Part shown: positions 3,775 through 9,500 of the stretch, piece by piece
How positions within the stretch are numbered: position 1 is the stretch's first letter
How the letters are laid out: the number at the start of each line of letters is the position of its first letter
Position numbers and translations under genes: made by a program
Source of the DNA: a virus
Length of the DNA stretch: 32,324 bases
Direction: 5' to 3' (one strand)
IMG/VR virus record: IMGVR_UViG_3300033183_000240
Span: 1-32,324 of that record
Notes under the pieces: generated by a model
The model's database searches: none
Told to the model about the DNA's origin: nothing
The model's input: only the letters and a program-made list of their open reading frames with translations

Positions 3775-4211
3775 TTAATACCTAGTTCTTTCTCAGTAAA
3801 GATCTTGAACTCCCAAAGACGATCATCACAGAATTCTTTACAAGCTTTCCATTTAGCTTGATTCGTACCCCAGGTATATACTTCGTTGATCCAAGTCTTT
3901 GTTTTCTTGGGTGGATTGGGGTTTGGTTCTCTACACTGTTTTGCTGGTTTGATCTCTACAACCATTCGACGCATACGGCCAGTTGCGTCAATATATTTGA
4001 TGTAGAAATCTGGGAAGTACCTTCTCTTCTTTCCTGTCACTGGATCTTTGTATGGAACAAAGAACTCTTCACTGCCCCATTCAATAATGTTCTCGGTGTC
4101 GTCACAATATTTGCAAAACTTTCTTTCCCAAAGAGACCTATAGATGATATTTGTTGGATCACCTTTATATTTCTTTGGATTGGAAGGCTTATACTTCCCC
4201 TTATAACTCAT
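3771..4211 (-). CDS. gp4: gp4 head completion protein
   Basis: A 146-aa homologue of T4 gp4 (gp50/65, 150 aa), needed to finish DNA-filled heads before tail joining. T4-like blocks are visible: KYKGDPTNIIYRSLWERKF, IEWGSEEFFVPY, KKRRYFPDFYIKY, VVEIKPAKQ, and NEVYTWGTNQAKWKA near residue 110. Residues P67-D68 and E86-I87-K88 fit a PD-(D/E)xK nuclease-type core. It is the first gene of the leftward operon. A late-promoter-like box on the minus strand (4236-4243) lies about 25 nt upstream, and the opposite promoter box for gp54 overlaps the gp4 start codon. Confidence 0.92.
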   Translation of the reverse strand: MSYKGKYKPSNPKKYKGDPTNIIYRSLWERKFCKYCDDTENIIEWGSEEFFVPYKDPVTGKKRRYFPDFYIKYIDATGRMRRMVVEIKPAKQCREPNPNPPKKTKTWINEVYTWGTNQAKWKACKEFCDDRLWEFKIFTEKELGIK

Positions 4212-4217
4212 AAATAA
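4209..4217 (+). promoter_or_regulatory. late promoter box for gp54
   Basis: The sequence CATAAATAA resembles the T4-type late promoter TATAAATA and lies 31 nt before the gp54 ATG. It overlaps the start codon of gp4 on the other strand. It is paired face to face with a similar box on the minus strand. Confidence 0.6.
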
Positions 4218-4235
4218 CTCTTAACTGGCTGATAT

Positions 4236-4243
4236 CTATTTAG
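4236..4243 (-). promoter_or_regulatory. late promoter box for the gp4-gp53 operon
   Basis: On the minus strand the sequence reads CTAAATAG, the same box type seen before gp26 and the fibre operons. It lies about 25 nt upstream of the gp4 ATG and would drive leftward transcription of the four-gene operon. Confidence 0.5.
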
Positions 4244-4248
4244 AACCC

Positions 4249-5121
4249 ATGCCTTTCGGTCCAAGACGATATCGAATCGACGATATCCGTTCCAGATTTC
4301 AAACTGTTGCACTTGATAACACATATCAAGTGTATTTCAACATGAACTCTTATGTGGTCAACGCGGCCAAAGAAAGGGGAATCGATCAAAGGTTTTTGAC
4401 CGAAGATCTTGGTTTGTATGTGTCGGATGCTGTTTTACCAGGATCAAGTTTCGGAGATATTGAGGTTGCTGGTGATCGTCAAGGTATCACCGAAAGAGTT
4501 GCGTTTTCTAGAATCTATGATGATGTGACCTTTAGTTTCTATGTTGATAGGGATTATAAGGTCTTGAAGTTCTTCGAATCATGGATTGAACTTGTAAATC
4601 CTCTGTCTGGATCGCAGAGTAGAAACAGTCAAGTAATGAGACTGAATTATCCAGACACTTATAAGTGTGGGATGAAGATATACAAATTCAACAAAGACAG
4701 ATTTAGTCGTGGACCACAATCTGCAAATGAACTTGAATTTGATTCTTTGAATAGAATCTCCATGATTGGCTATAACTTCTTCAGAGCCTGGCCATATTCC
4801 ATTGCTTCCACACCTGTGAATTACAATGGATCAAATGTGTTACAATGTAATGTAACCTTTAGATATGATCGTTATATTGTGGATAATGTTACCATCAATA
4901 GAAGTTCTAATGTAACTCCTGGTTCCATTCTTCAACAACAGGCACTCTTTGAACAAAACCTTCTTGAAGCCACTGGTGGTGGTATTGCATTGACTGGTGC
5001 TGGAACTGCACAAGAACTTTTCGAGATCAATAATATCGGTGGAGCTTTTGGTGGTCCACAAGAAGGAGACACTCCTGAAGCTTTCCAAGGTAACTTCAAC
5101 ATTGGAGTTGACATCGGATAA
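4249..5121 (+). CDS. gp54: gp54 baseplate-tail tube initiator
   Basis: A 290-aa protein recognised as gp54, which sits on the baseplate with gp48 and starts polymerisation of the gp19 tail tube. Family features include an N-terminal RRYRIDDIRSRFQTVALDNTYQV, a GLYVSDAVLPGSSFGDIEV block, ITERVAFSRIYDDVTFSFYVDRDY (tube-like beta strands) and FRAWPYSIASTPVNYNGSN, followed by a Gly/Ala-rich tail. The size is close to T4 gp54 (320 aa). It opens the long rightward tail block behind its own late promoter. The 31-nt gap to gp26 holds another late box. Confidence 0.87.
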   Translation: MPFGPRRYRIDDIRSRFQTVALDNTYQVYFNMNSYVVNAAKERGIDQRFLTEDLGLYVSDAVLPGSSFGDIEVAGDRQGITERVAFSRIYDDVTFSFYVDRDYKVLKFFESWIELVNPLSGSQSRNSQVMRLNYPDTYKCGMKIYKFNKDRFSRGPQSANELEFDSLNRISMIGYNFFRAWPYSIASTPVNYNGSNVLQCNVTFRYDRYIVDNVTINRSSNVTPGSILQQQALFEQNLLEATGGGIALTGAGTAQELFEINNIGGAFGGPQEGDTPEAFQGNFNIGVDIG

Positions 5122-5126
5122 TCACT

Positions 5127-5134
5127 CTAAATAA
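5127..5134 (+). promoter_or_regulatory. late promoter box for gp26
   Basis: CTAAATAA lies just after the gp54 stop and 18 nt before the gp26 ATG. It matches the box type seen at several other late operon starts in this window. Confidence 0.55.
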
Positions 5135-5152
5135 ATCACTGACTCTCTTATC

Positions 5153-5866
5153 ATGCCTTTACCTACAATTTCAACCCCTACCCATGAACTGACTTTACCA
5201 TCAACAGGAAAGACAGTTAAATATAGACCCTTTTTAGTTAAAGAAGAAAAAATCCTTATTCTTGCGATTGAGAGTGGAGATCTCAAAGACATCACAAGAG
5301 CTATTAAGGATGTATTGAAAAACTGCATCATGACCAGAGGTATCAAGGTGGATCAACTTCCCACCTTTGATATTGAGTATTTGTTTTTAAACATCCGTGC
5401 AAAATCTGTTGGTGAAAGTGTTGATATTATTGTGACCTGTCCTGATGATGGTGTCACTGAGGTTCGCACTAAGATCTATATTGATGAGATCGAAGTGAAG
5501 AAAAACAAGGACCACACCACTGACATTCAAATTGATGACAACTATACTTTGAGGATGAAATATCCATCTCTGGATCAATTCATCAGTGAGAACTTCAACT
5601 TTAAGGGTGATACTGATGATACCTTTGCTCTTGTAGCATCTTGTATCGATATGGTCTATAGTGAAGATGAAGCTTGGTCCGCTTCAGATTGCACTAAGAA
5701 AGAACTCATTACATTCATCGAACAGTTCAACTCTTCTCAATTCAGAGAGATTGAGAAATTCTTTGATACTATGCCCAAACTTTCACATACCGTTGTTGTG
5801 AAAAATCCAAACACGGGTGTTGATAATGAAGTGGTCTTGGAGGGGCTGTCAAGTTTTTTCGCCTGA
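5153..5866 (+). CDS. gp26: gp26-like baseplate hub/tail assembly chaperone
   Basis: A 237-aa protein matching the T4 gp26 family (T4 baseplate protein family; T4 gp26 is 208 aa), an assembly factor of the central hub. Visible features are the N-terminal PTISTPTHELTLPSTGKTV, KYRPFLVKEEKILILAIESGD, then FDIEYLFLNIRAKSVGESV with a following CPDDG loop, and the C-terminal SQFREIEKFFDTMPKLSHTV. The gene ends at codons AGT TTT TTC GCC TGA. This contains a T_TTT_TTC heptamer in the zero frame, so a fraction of ribosomes may shift to -1 and continue into the next ORF. That would give a fusion of about 299 aa, like the G/GT tail chaperones of other long-tailed phages. Confidence 0.85.
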   Translation: MPLPTISTPTHELTLPSTGKTVKYRPFLVKEEKILILAIESGDLKDITRAIKDVLKNCIMTRGIKVDQLPTFDIEYLFLNIRAKSVGESVDIIVTCPDDGVTEVRTKIYIDEIEVKKNKDHTTDIQIDDNYTLRMKYPSLDQFISENFNFKGDTDDTFALVASCIDMVYSEDEAWSASDCTKKELITFIEQFNSSQFREIEKFFDTMPKLSHTVVVKNPNTGVDNEVVLEGLSSFFA

Positions 5867-5876
5867 GTATGGCTCA
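5839..5876 (+). promoter_or_regulatory. candidate programmed -1 frameshift signal at the gp26 end
   Basis: The slip heptamer is T5854 plus TTT TTC (5854-5860), read by gp26 as agT TTT TTC. An internal Shine-Dalgarno GGAGG (5839-5843) lies exactly 10 nt upstream, the spacing that stimulates -1 shifting in dnaX-type sites and too far (over 20 nt) to serve the ATG at 5869. A small stem TGAG/CTCA (5864-5867 with 5873-5876) follows. After a -1 slip the next codons are CGC CTG AGT ATG, exactly the frame of the downstream ORF, with no stop between. Confidence 0.65.
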
Positions 5877-6051
5877 TATAAATGCTGAGTCATACTACGA
5901 ACTTAATTTTTCGTTGATGCAGTACCATAAATACTCTTTGACGGAAATTGAAAACATGATGCCGTGGGAGAGAGACATTTATGTATCTCTTCTTAGAAAC
6001 TATCTTGACGCTGAGAAACTCAAACAACAACAAGAACACGGTCTCGGTTAA
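5869..6051 (+). CDS. gp51-position small assembly protein / candidate frameshift extension of gp26
   Basis: A 60-aa ORF (starting MAHINAESYYELNFSLMQYH) directly after gp26, in the place of T4 gene 51 (baseplate hub assembly catalyst). It is far shorter than T4 gp51 (249 aa). It contains the pattern YHKYSLTEIENMMPWERDIYVSLLRNYL and a polar C-terminal tail with KLKQQQEH. The short W-E-R-D-I-Y helix near the end resembles the downstream half of GT-type tail chaperones. No Shine-Dalgarno lies at normal distance from the ATG, and the ORF is in the -1 frame of gp26 and open back to the slip site. I therefore infer it is made at least partly as a gp26 fusion. Its stop overlaps the next ATG (TAATG). 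Confidence 0.7.
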   Translation: MAHINAESYYELNFSLMQYHKYSLTEIENMMPWERDIYVSLLRNYLDAEKLKQQQEHGLG

Positions 6052-7574
6052 TGGCAGTAGGATTAGGAGCGTTATTTAAGAATATCTTGAAACTTGGCGT
6101 CAAGGAAGGCGCCAAGAAAAGTATAGCTAATAAATTGTTTGGTCAACCAGAACCTCAGGGTGATCAACTATTAGATCTTTTAGAAGAAGAAAGAAGACAA
6201 AGGGCCATGGAGTTCCTTGGTGGTGGGGGACCAAACTACTACCAAGATCCTAGGGATGACGCTCCTAACATCATGATACCTGAACCTCTGGTTCAAACTC
6301 CCACAAGTGATATTGTTCCACAACAGACTGTTGTTCCTCAAATTATTGAAGCTCCAAGAGGTGCGGTCAGTCGTAGTGTAGCTGGTATCGTCGAAGAAAT
6401 AGATCGCATTAACTCCAATATTGCAGCAATCACACTGGCAATGGCTAGTAGTGCAGAATTGGAGAAGAAATATCGTGATGAGATGATCAAGGATCGTGAA
6501 GAACTCCTTGCACAGAGAGGAAAGGCAAGATCTCAAAGAAGGGCCACGAGACGTAGATCTCAAGCTAGAGGATTCTTTAGACCAATTAGACGAGCTGCGA
6601 GAAGAGCTGGTGGTGGACTTCGCAACTTAGGAAACGCAGCCCTGATGGGACTGGGTATTGAAACTGCTGCATTTGTTGTTAAAGCCCTTGAGAAATTCAT
6701 GGGTGGTCCAGATGATCCAACTACAGCACCAACTGCAAAAGGTGCTGATGATTTGTTCACTGTTATCTCTGGTGGTGAAGGTGGTATAGATTCTTACAAC
6801 ACTGGAACTGCGGGAAGTCAGGCTGGATACGAGCCACCAAAACCAATTTCTCAAATGACCTTTGGGGACATCATGGATGCCCAGGATGCAGGGTCATTGT
6901 TTGCGGTTGGTAAGTACCAAATCACTCCAGATACCATGAAAGGTTTTGTGAGTGGTATGAACATCAAGAGAACTGATGTTTTCAATGAAGAGAATCAAGA
7001 TAAGTTTAAAGAGTATGTTGTAACTAAGAAGAGACCTAAGGTTGGTCAATACTTGGCTGGTTCTAAGAAGATTAGTAGAGATCAAGCTCTCTTAGAGCTT
7101 GCTGCTGAGTTTGCATCTGTTGGTGTTCCTTATGACATGAAACAGGGTGAATACTCTCGTTATGATCCTAGTTTGGGTGGTCCTGTTCCAAGTAGAAACA
7201 TCAAAGCTGGTGAGAGTTTGTATGTTGGATATGGTGGAAACCGTGCAAGTCCTAACCTTGGACCAGATAGGTTAGGACCACTCCTGGAAAAAGCCAGAGA
7301 GAAGGCAATGAGAGGTGGTGGTAGTAATGGTCCTGTAGAGCCAACAAATAACGGTGGTGGACAACAATCGTCCGCCTCATTTACTCCAATGTCAAGTGAT
7401 ATTGCTATGAGTGGTGGTGGTGTTGGTCCTAGGAGCCCAAATGTAACTGTTATTGATAGAAGAGTTGATGTTGCTCTTCGTGGTAAAGGTGGTGGAGTTG
7501 CTCAATCCACAGAGATCCCAGATCGTGATCCTGGTGGTGGTGGACTTTACGAACAATATATGGAGGTTGCATAA
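6051..7574 (+). CDS. tail protein with lysozyme-like muramidase domain
   Basis: A 507-aa protein in three parts. The N-terminal 150 residues are mixed, with helix-prone segments (LLDLLEEERRQRAMEFL; IVEEIDRINSNIAAITLAMASS). A very basic stretch follows at about residues 155-195 (RRATRRRSQARGFF, RRAARRAGG). From about residue 238 it carries a lysozyme-superfamily domain: SGGEGGIDSYNTG with E243 as the likely catalytic acid, ISQMTFGDIMDAQ, LFAVGKYQITPDTMKGFV, NEENQDKFKEYVV. This is the pattern of phage muramidases that cut peptidoglycan. The rest is Gly-rich linker. Placed between the gp26/51 chaperones and the hub, it likely supplies the tail cell-wall hydrolase that T4 carries inside gp5. It could alternatively be annotated as a tape-measure-type protein. 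Confidence 0.7.
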   Translation: MAVGLGALFKNILKLGVKEGAKKSIANKLFGQPEPQGDQLLDLLEEERRQRAMEFLGGGGPNYYQDPRDDAPNIMIPEPLVQTPTSDIVPQQTVVPQIIEAPRGAVSRSVAGIVEEIDRINSNIAAITLAMASSAELEKKYRDEMIKDREELLAQRGKARSQRRATRRRSQARGFFRPIRRAARRAGGGLRNLGNAALMGLGIETAAFVVKALEKFMGGPDDPTTAPTAKGADDLFTVISGGEGGIDSYNTGTAGSQAGYEPPKPISQMTFGDIMDAQDAGSLFAVGKYQITPDTMKGFVSGMNIKRTDVFNEENQDKFKEYVVTKKRPKVGQYLAGSKKISRDQALLELAAEFASVGVPYDMKQGEYSRYDPSLGGPVPSRNIKAGESLYVGYGGNRASPNLGPDRLGPLLEKAREKAMRGGGSNGPVEPTNNGGGQQSSASFTPMSSDIAMSGGGVGPRSPNVTVIDRRVDVALRGKGGGVAQSTEIPDRDPGGGGLYEQYMEVA

Positions 7575-7577
7575 GAC

Positions 7578-9500
7578 ATGGCTTTTAATCCATTCCACGA
7601 TTTAGATCCAGCAGATAGAGAACGTGCCATTGAACAAATGGGTGGTGCAAACACCACCGACTTGAATATAATCCGTAACAGACTGAGAACAACAACTTCT
7701 CAGGTTAAAGGTATTGTTAATCTACTGAAGAGAAAGAACTCAACAGTCAAACAAGATCTTGATAGAATTAAGTTATTAGATCGTAGACTGAAGAGAGTTA
7801 TTCCAATCATTCCTGGAATGGCTGGAGTTGCTGGTGCTGTCTTTGGTGGTCCTCAACGTGTTCAAGGGCGGCCGCCAGGTGGTGGTTTGCCTCCTCTGGG
7901 TGGATTGCCTGGTGGTATTCCCAGAGGTCCTGGTGGAAGACCAACGGCTCCAACACCTGTACCTGTTACTCCAACAGTCCCTGTACCTGAAAAAGAACGA
8001 GAACGAGAAAGAGAACCAGAAAAAGTTCCTGAACAACCACCAGTAACTATACCTGAAAAAGAACGAGAACGAGAACGAGAACGAGAAAGAGAACCACGAA
8101 GACAACCTCAGTGGGAATGGCCAGAACTTCCACCATTTATTCTTCCACCACTTCGTGATCTCCCTGGATTAGCATATGGTCTTAACAACACAATTGTTGC
8201 TAAAGCTAATGCCCTTTCTGGAAAACTTAACGCTATTGCAAAGGATTTTGGATTTGATTTTAATTTAGATCGTGACAAATTAGCAGCTGAATTTGCAAAG
8301 TTACCTGAACAACTAAAAGCAGAACAAGAGAAACAAGCAAAGGCAGGTTTTCTTCAAAATTTGAAGAATCCAAATTTTCTTATTCAATCCATTGCATTGC
8401 AACAGACATTTGGCAATCTAGGCAGACCTGGACGTGACAAGTTTGGTGATACAGCAATGAAATTAAAGCTTGCTTCTAGATTTGCCAGACTTTCCAGAAC
8501 TGCTAATCTAACTAGAAGAACACCAATCGTCTCAGCACCTGCTGCACGGATGTCGCAACTGTCCGCACCGTATGAAGAAATTGTAAAAGGTCTTAGTTAT
8601 GCAACTAGAGAGGGTCGTCGCATAGGTGGAACTACGGTTCGTAGAAGAGCTCCATTGATGCAAGGATTTGAAACTGGTGGACTTTATAGAAAAGGACCTA
8701 CGATTACACCTGAAGAAAGAGCAATGAGGCAAGCCCTGATGGACATTGTTGATGAAGAAACTCTTAGAATGCTTGATGATCCTAAAAACGTTTATTCGCA
8801 ACTTGCAAGAGCTGATGTAGATAAAATTGTTGCACAAACTTATAAGAGAGCTGACGATATTGCAGAACAAATTTTTGGTATCAAAACAAAACCAGCTAAA
8901 AAGGCTGTTACATCCATGAACGTTTTGAAAAGTCCTAGAAACTTTATGAACTCCTTCATGGAGGGTGATATTGCAATTCCACCAGGATCTGTTGCTGATA
9001 TTCTTGGGTTGAATAATGATGCATTGAGAAAGAGATTTGGTTACTATCTCCTTCAAGCACCTCCAGGCAGAAAAGAGCAGTATTCTAACTTCATTTACAA
9101 GATTTCAAAAGATCTTGGTATCGTACCAGGAAAATCTACAAATCAACTTGATGATAATACTGTAAAATTCTTGATGCGTTTCTTTAGACCTTCTGCAAAT
9201 GCGTCTACTGATATTAGACCTGGAATATTCAAGAAATTACAAGAGGGTAATTTTGTTGAAAAAGACAAATTATTTGGTGAGTTCTTATCTATAGATGATA
9301 TTAAAAATCTAAAAGATCCTGCACAAATCCCTGGAGTTCCTGATCCAAAACTTTTGTCACCAGGAGCTGAAAAAATTTCTGGTCCAAGAAGTTCTGTCAT
9401 GGGTGTACCACTTTCTATGGATATTGCTTCATTAAATAGTCAAATAGATAACACCGACATTGTAATCGTTCTCACAGGTCCTAAACCAGTCGCCGTCTAA
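7578..9500 (+). CDS. 640-aa tail protein with ER-repeat linker (tape-measure candidate)
   Basis: A large protein after the lysozyme gene, starting MAFNPFHDLDPADRERAIEQM. Residues about 30-75 are helical and basic. Residues 85-130 are Gly/Pro-rich. Residues 137-180 hold two copies of a charged tract, PEKEREREREPEK and PEKEREREREREREPRR, separated by VPEQPPVTI. The remainder is mostly helical and Ala/Lys/Arg-rich, with no catalytic motif I recognise. Its position between the assembly chaperones and the gp27-like hub, with a length near T4 gp29 (590 aa), makes a tape-measure or hub role plausible, but I see no direct sequence match to gp29. Its stop overlaps the next ATG (TAATG). Confidence 0.7.
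   Translation: MAFNPFHDLDPADRERAIEQMGGANTTDLNIIRNRLRTTTSQVKGIVNLLKRKNSTVKQDLDRIKLLDRRLKRVIPIIPGMAGVAGAVFGGPQRVQGRPPGGGLPPLGGLPGGIPRGPGGRPTAPTPVPVTPTVPVPEKEREREREPEKVPEQPPVTIPEKEREREREREREPRRQPQWEWPELPPFILPPLRDLPGLAYGLNNTIVAKANALSGKLNAIAKDFGFDFNLDRDKLAAEFAKLPEQLKAEQEKQAKAGFLQNLKNPNFLIQSIALQQTFGNLGRPGRDKFGDTAMKLKLASRFARLSRTANLTRRTPIVSAPAARMSQLSAPYEEIVKGLSYATREGRRIGGTTVRRRAPLMQGFETGGLYRKGPTITPEERAMRQALMDIVDEETLRMLDDPKNVYSQLARADVDKIVAQTYKRADDIAEQIFGIKTKPAKKAVTSMNVLKSPRNFMNSFMEGDIAIPPGSVADILGLNNDALRKRFGYYLLQAPPGRKEQYSNFIYKISKDLGIVPGKSTNQLDDNTVKFLMRFFRPSANASTDIRPGIFKKLQEGNFVEKDKLFGEFLSIDDIKNLKDPAQIPGVPDPKLLSPGAEKISGPRSSVMGVPLSMDIASLNSQIDNTDIVIVLTGPKPVAV
7982..8096 (+). repeat. in-frame GAACGA hexamer repeats (Glu-Arg tract)
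   Basis: Two tracts beginning CCTGAAAAAGAACGAGAACG carry runs of GA(A/G)CGA/GAAAGA units that encode alternating Glu and Arg. The second tract is two units longer than the first, a sign of slippage or unequal exchange in steps of six bases that keep the frame. Confidence 0.8.

Follow-up and report, generated by a model that had tools for sequence, protein, structure and literature searches.

The DNA analysed here, hereafter the window, is the full length of the linear IMG/VR fragment IMGVR_UViG_3300033183_000240 (32,324 bases), from a marine T4-like cyanophage, and its features described below between 4249 and 7574 lie on the plus strand. A tail tube protein gene (4249-5121), recognised by profile match (Phage_TTP_2, phrog_45), is situated upstream of the gp26 gene (5153-5866; 237 aa), which we read as the putative short (G-like, TAC-N) form of a chaperone gene. 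The latter is the only PF12322 gene of the 32,324-base fragment (PF12322/phrog_150, E 3.5e-75) and its profile score of 252.9 bits lies far above the curated cut-off of 24.5 bits. Past gp26, the -1 frame runs on as a putative T-like (TAC-C) extension (5860-6051) of 63 codons beyond the slip site plus a stop, usually annotated as a separate 'gp51'. The 60-aa open reading frame (ORF) annotated as 'baseplate hub assembly catalyst' (5869-6051) is this same open -1 frame. The next gene, a 507-aa ORF (6051-7574), is a candidate tape-measure or hub protein by virtue of the tape-measure position only; it has a hydrophobic segment around residue 200 and, at residues 221-360, a phrog_37890-like domain, and none of the tape-measure profiles matched it. 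The initial annotation had noted that long-tailed phages make such a shift just before the tape-measure gene; for the locus considered here this link is drawn from relatives, HTVC008M and phiM12 having a tape-measure-like gene two genes downstream of gp51, as the next gene of the window is without such a profile match. A 640-aa ORF (7578-9500), flanked by the gp26 region and a gene for a tail protein, matches neither Pfam nor PHROG and contains a low-complexity Pro/Glu/Arg stretch, EKEREREREREREP.

Because the gp26 gene ends in TCA AGT TTT TTC GCC TGA, its TTTTTTC is parsed as T_TTT_TTC in the gp26 frame (5854-5860), a slippery heptamer of the X_XXY_YYZ form that characterises programmed -1 ribosomal frameshift sites and one that is kept in relatives. 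An internal Shine-Dalgarno-like GGAGG (5839-5843) lies 10 nt 5' of the heptamer, 25 nt from the ATG at 5869 and thus too distant to serve this start codon. Beginning 34 nt 5' of the gp26 stop, the -1 frame stays open up to the TAA at 6049-6051, and a shift at the heptamer would join 236 residues to 63, giving 299 aa. In these respects the initial annotation was accurate: it had proposed the in-frame heptamer, which is correct base for base, the GGAGG 10 nt before it, a downstream ORF open in the -1 frame from the slip site, and a fusion of about 299 aa beside a 237-aa gp26. It had also noticed a short stem just after the slip site. A stem-loop is indeed predicted there (5866-5896), with 5866-5876 pairing with 5886-5896 around a 9-nt loop after a 5-nt spacer, but 'short' understates it, as it comprises 11 bp with an energy of -13.9 kcal/mol and a z of -3.6 against dinucleotide shuffles. 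Its 5' arm holds the annotated gp51 ATG (5869-5871). An Rfam search of positions 4000-7000 returned no family at its gathering score.

The arrangement is conserved far beyond the window. The 80 closest IMG/VR relatives, picked by gp26 similarity alone (63-72% identity), without exception carry TTTTTTC at -10 from the gp26 stop together with an open -1 frame (80/80). A wider survey with S-PM2, Melnitz-3, Aeromonas 65 and T4 as queries, complemented with GenBank records, yielded 204 non-redundant loci with one PF12322 gene, in which the T domain was located by HMM. At every one of them the -1 frame encodes the T domain, with a match to the T-domain HMM, and is open and conserved as protein (204/204), while 203 have a U6 heptamer in the gp26 frame, 7-13 nt before the gp26 stop. 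Most of these heptamers are TTTTTTC, with some TTTTTTA or TTTTTTT. Methylophilales-type phages (loci L084 and L173-L189) display an eight-T slip run that abuts the gp26 stop (TTTTTTT heptamer at -7). Among named phages, gp26 with a -1-frame T is found in HTVC008M, phiM12, pf16, Aeromonas 65 and Cronobacter S13, as well as in Vibrio D481, EniLVp02, Acidovorax ACP17, Rhizobium RL38J1 and Acinetobacter SH-Ab 15599, so that the arrangement spans phages of Pelagibacter, Methylophilales, Sinorhizobium, Pseudomonas, Aeromonas, Vibrio, Cronobacter, Acidovorax, Rhizobium and Acinetobacter. A chance origin of the heptamer can be rejected, given these counts and given that no further in-frame U6 heptamer exists in the 11 main ORFs checked in the window.

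The signal also bears the marks of selection at the nucleotide level. In 74 sequence pairs from loci pre-selected for TTTTTTC, synonymous differences are absent from the two Phe slip codons, where approximately 18 are expected for each, and number 5 in the codon before them, against 22.8 expected, the slip codons being the strongest synonymous-constraint window of the gp26 gene. Since this set was chosen for the heptamer and the set of nearest relatives was not, more weight is due to the 80/80 given above. At the Glu codon within the Shine-Dalgarno sequence, 115 of 157 relatives use GAG and 28 use GAA, against a preference for GAA in the Glu columns nearby (GAG:GAA 20:84 and 18:62). Downstream, the 50 nt past the heptamer have a mean folding z of -2.29 over 203 loci, compared with -0.85 to +0.31 in control stretches. 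Within the window's group (33 sequences), 93.7% of the stem pair cells are formed, versus 26-46% when the partner is slid; 13 stem cells are altered on both sides and one stem pair alternates in compensatory fashion between UA, AU and GC. The clearest instance is an Ala codon whose silent third base varies with the middle base of the E/V/A codon on the opposite arm (GCT/GAG 57 times, T-A; GCA/GTG 12 times, A-T; GCG/GCG 5 times, G-C; unpaired 4 times). We rely on the slid-partner control and on this silent-site covariation because shuffle controls for stem pairing ignore the relatedness of the sequences. Other groups, for example the S-PM2 relatives, retain a stem of different sequence. Both types of stimulator are therefore present, an upstream GGAGG with its conserved GAG codon and a covarying downstream structure. 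The initial annotation had named conservation of the heptamer, of the 10-nt Shine-Dalgarno spacing and of the -1 frame in relatives as its own test: all three are kept, and so is the stem.

T4 encodes a counterpart of the product that a frameshift would give here. PF12322 matches residues 1-206 of T4 gp26 and residues 1-201 of T4 gp51, and past this match T4 gp51 continues, in one reading frame, into the same C-terminal domain as that of the window's -1 frame. T4 gp51 thus combines a gp26-like domain with the C-terminal domain, and the fusion product predicted for the window has a natural counterpart. By sequence, a short and a C-terminally extended form can be recognised (237 and 299 aa), with gp51 as the counterpart of the latter in T4-type phages. 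The earlier proposal that gp26 and its small neighbour are the T4-group chaperone pair gains support from the fused T4 gp51 and from the fold match of gp26 described below. The surveyed loci fall into two types, having either a single gp26 with T in the -1 frame or a pair of gp26 paralogues, one of which carries T as a fusion. In an unrooted tree of 44 domains, the T-fused and the T-less paralogues of the two-gene phages form one group each, and both groups together are set apart from all single-gene phages (99/93 support). As the single-gene members include Straboviridae (Aeromonas 65, S13 and EniLVp02), a single duplication in a frameshifting ancestor would be the simplest reading of the origin of the two-gene type, albeit one that is not proven. 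In Cronobacter phage vB_CsaM_leN (L270, 2473-3791) the gp26 paralogues are in tandem on one strand with the T-fused one first, whereas those of T4 are divergent. At another locus (L266, 2482-3255) the T-fused paralogue is broken into two overlapping frames, owing either to a sequencing error or to a real break.

Structure prediction offers a further indication. The AF2 model of the window's gp26 has a mean pLDDT of 86.9, and the predicted fold of its N-domain (the first ~90 residues) resembles the HK97 tail assembly chaperone 2ob9 (Z 7.8 over 84 residues, 8% identity) and 3fgx (Z 7.9), followed by 5ir0 (4.8), the rest being at 2.3 or below. A best match near Z 8 is at a level that is possible for an ordinary arrangement, and the Foldseek E-value is 0.73. 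The predicted HK97-type tail assembly chaperone fold is thus supportive but not conclusive. The tail chaperone match was seen with the window's gp26 model only: Foldseek with a T4-type gp51 model against the PDB gave no match with E <= 0.001, nor did the matches listed include a tail chaperone. Sequence searches of solved structures with a gp26 profile or T4 gp51 brought up no believable relatives.

From the sequence signals and the analogy with lambda, it appears very likely that -1 frameshifting at the end of gp26 yields a 299-aa gp26-T fusion beside the main 237-aa gp26, and that the two serve as chaperones in the manner of lambda gpG/gpGT, gp26 being the G-like short tail assembly chaperone and the 299-aa product its GT-like form. 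Ribosomes translating gp26 would reach T_TTT_TTC, where the Shine-Dalgarno sequence 10 nt upstream and the stem 5 nt downstream would strain the mRNA, and in a minority of ribosomes both Phe tRNAs would slip back by one base and re-pair with UUU UUU, translation then proceeding in the -1 frame. Gp26 and the gp26-T fusion would then be made at a fixed ratio, with gp26 as the main product. If the analogy with lambda gpG/gpGT extends to function, many short and few long chaperones would cover the tape-measure protein, and the T domain would bring in tail-tube subunits, starting the tail.

It is conceivable, but in our judgement unlikely, that the site is real and yet serves baseplate hub assembly specifically, as in the classical reading of gp26 and gp51, rather than tape-measure chaperoning. 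Although gp26 and gp51 figure as chaperones of hub assembly in a review on the T4 tail (PMC3004832), and the profile names read baseplate hub, the same review reports that T4 gp51 is required yet absent from the finished particle. The predicted fold of gp26 moreover resembles a tail assembly chaperone, and in relatives the locus has a tail tube gene on one side and tape-measure-like genes on the other. In any case one role need not preclude the other, since T4 gp29 is both a hub part and the tape measure (PMC3004832).

A far less probable scenario is that gp51 is a separate 60-aa protein initiated at ATG 5869, perhaps coupled to gp26 termination. Such coupling would fit the window's ATG only 2 nt beyond the gp26 TGA, the ATG near the T-frame ORF start in 136 of 204 loci (absent in 68), and GenBank records, which annotate two genes: among the frameshift-type records examined none has a joined CDS, the halves being listed as separate genes. 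However, ATG 5869 sits within the conserved stem with no Shine-Dalgarno sequence at a usable distance, and in 41 of the 204 loci the T frame is devoid of ATG, GTG and TTG from the slip site to approximately 40 nt beyond the end of gp26, which makes gp26 the most likely sole route to the T domain of these phages. Coupling would need neither an invariant T_TTT_TTC nor a fixed -1 frame, and T4 gp51 has the same domain fused to a gp26-like domain. Independent initiation of the 60-aa ORF is thus rejected on the position of its start codon and on the absence of a start from 41 loci, and this ORF is probably not a separate gene. Least probable of all is that slippage of the transcribing polymerase on the T6 run gives rise to the fusion. 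Although six Ts are in general a plausible slippage substrate, an internal Shine-Dalgarno sequence at fixed spacing and a covarying stem 5 nt downstream are ribosome-directed stimulators, and in most loci the run stops at six T, with C or A as the next base, and so has the form of a heptamer and not of an extended homopolymer. We therefore reject this reading.

Programmed frameshifting is the preferred reading for the window, and a variant of it may operate elsewhere. Ackermannviridae (CBA120, 15 IMG/VR relatives, phiMAM1 and phiA8-29; L268, L269, L272 and L279-L293) and Vibrio D506 (L089) have the T domain in the -1 frame, but their gp26 ends in NTT_TTC (ATT TTC, GTT TTC or CTT TTC) without U6. 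The first ATG of the CBA120 -1 frame lies only inside the T domain. A weaker slip involving the second tRNA is possible at NTT_TTC in these phages. We tentatively entertain, at somewhat less than even confidence, the combined proposal that Ackermannviridae (CBA120, phiMAM1) and Vibrio D506 fuse the two parts by a -1 shift at NTT_TTC with the second tRNA alone re-pairing well, and that in the cyanophage group the stem buries the annotated gp51 ATG, so that T would be made as a fusion only. A scan of viral contigs with Vibrio D506 gp26 as query gave no matches.

The abstract of the 2022 study by Vladimirov, Gautam and Davidson reportedly states that frameshifting is conserved in several T4-like groups. 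In the record of Acinetobacter phage Stupor both genes are named tape measure protein assembly chaperones. In the earlier literature, G-T frameshifting was described as conserved in long-tailed phages 'except T4' (Atkins et al., 2016, PMC5009743), and cyanophage gp51 as having ~20% of the usual length and lacking the first ~200 residues (Sullivan et al., 2010, PMC3037559). As cited by others (PMC10885494, PMC12846349), Vladimirov, Gautam and Davidson (2022, Virology 566:9-15) identified the chaperone genes of T4-like phages, and they are credited with the poly-T slip sites in T4-like TAC-N genes (PMC12846349); according to PRFect, some T4-like phages have a short gene and a fused long gene in place of frameshifting (PMC10885494). 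Inasmuch as these citations convey that work, this kind of frameshift was already known, and the window's locus is a well-supported further member of the known frameshift-chaperone kind. The initial annotation was not aware of such an event being annotated for cyanomyoviruses; the frameshift-type GenBank records examined indeed have no joined CDS, whereas novelty for T4-like phages does not stand in view of what is credited to Vladimirov et al. (2022). The literature searched, which left out most subscription papers, contained no cyanophage-specific report of a gp26 frameshift, nor did we find the stem, Shine-Dalgarno and start-codon evidence described there.

The present analysis contributes the scale of the survey, a covarying stem in which the start annotated for gp51 would be buried, a conserved internal Shine-Dalgarno sequence, and an Ackermannviridae variant without a canonical heptamer. 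This supports correcting the annotation of frameshift-type T4-like genomes, in which the small 'gp51' would be the frameshift half of a chaperone rather than a truncated gene. It also ties marine T4-like phages to the tail-building scheme of lambda, and points to gene duplication in one lineage where others use a frameshift. The covarying stem provides a concrete, mutable signal with which the short-to-long ratio could be probed.

Compared with lambda gpG/gpGT, the window's locus has what is probably the same place in the tail module, a predicted -1 frameshift site near the end of the putative short chaperone gene, and a short and a predicted long form, but it uses a U6 heptamer where lambda has its own slip site, and its gp26 belongs to PF12322 and carries further residues past the N-domain. 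The predicted N-domain fold may be akin to that of the HK97 tail assembly chaperone (2ob9), to which the window's gp26 adds a further ~140 residues. T4 gp26 corresponds to the short form and T4 gp51, a gp26-like domain with the same C-terminal domain, to the long one, although T4 encodes them as two duplicated genes and without a frameshift. Closest are the TAC-N/TAC-NC genes of T4-like phages (Vladimirov et al., 2022), which, as represented in the papers citing them, share with the window the kind of gene, the two forms, the poly-T slip site in TAC-N and the contrast to those T4-like phages that have two genes instead, and from which the window shows no fundamental difference.
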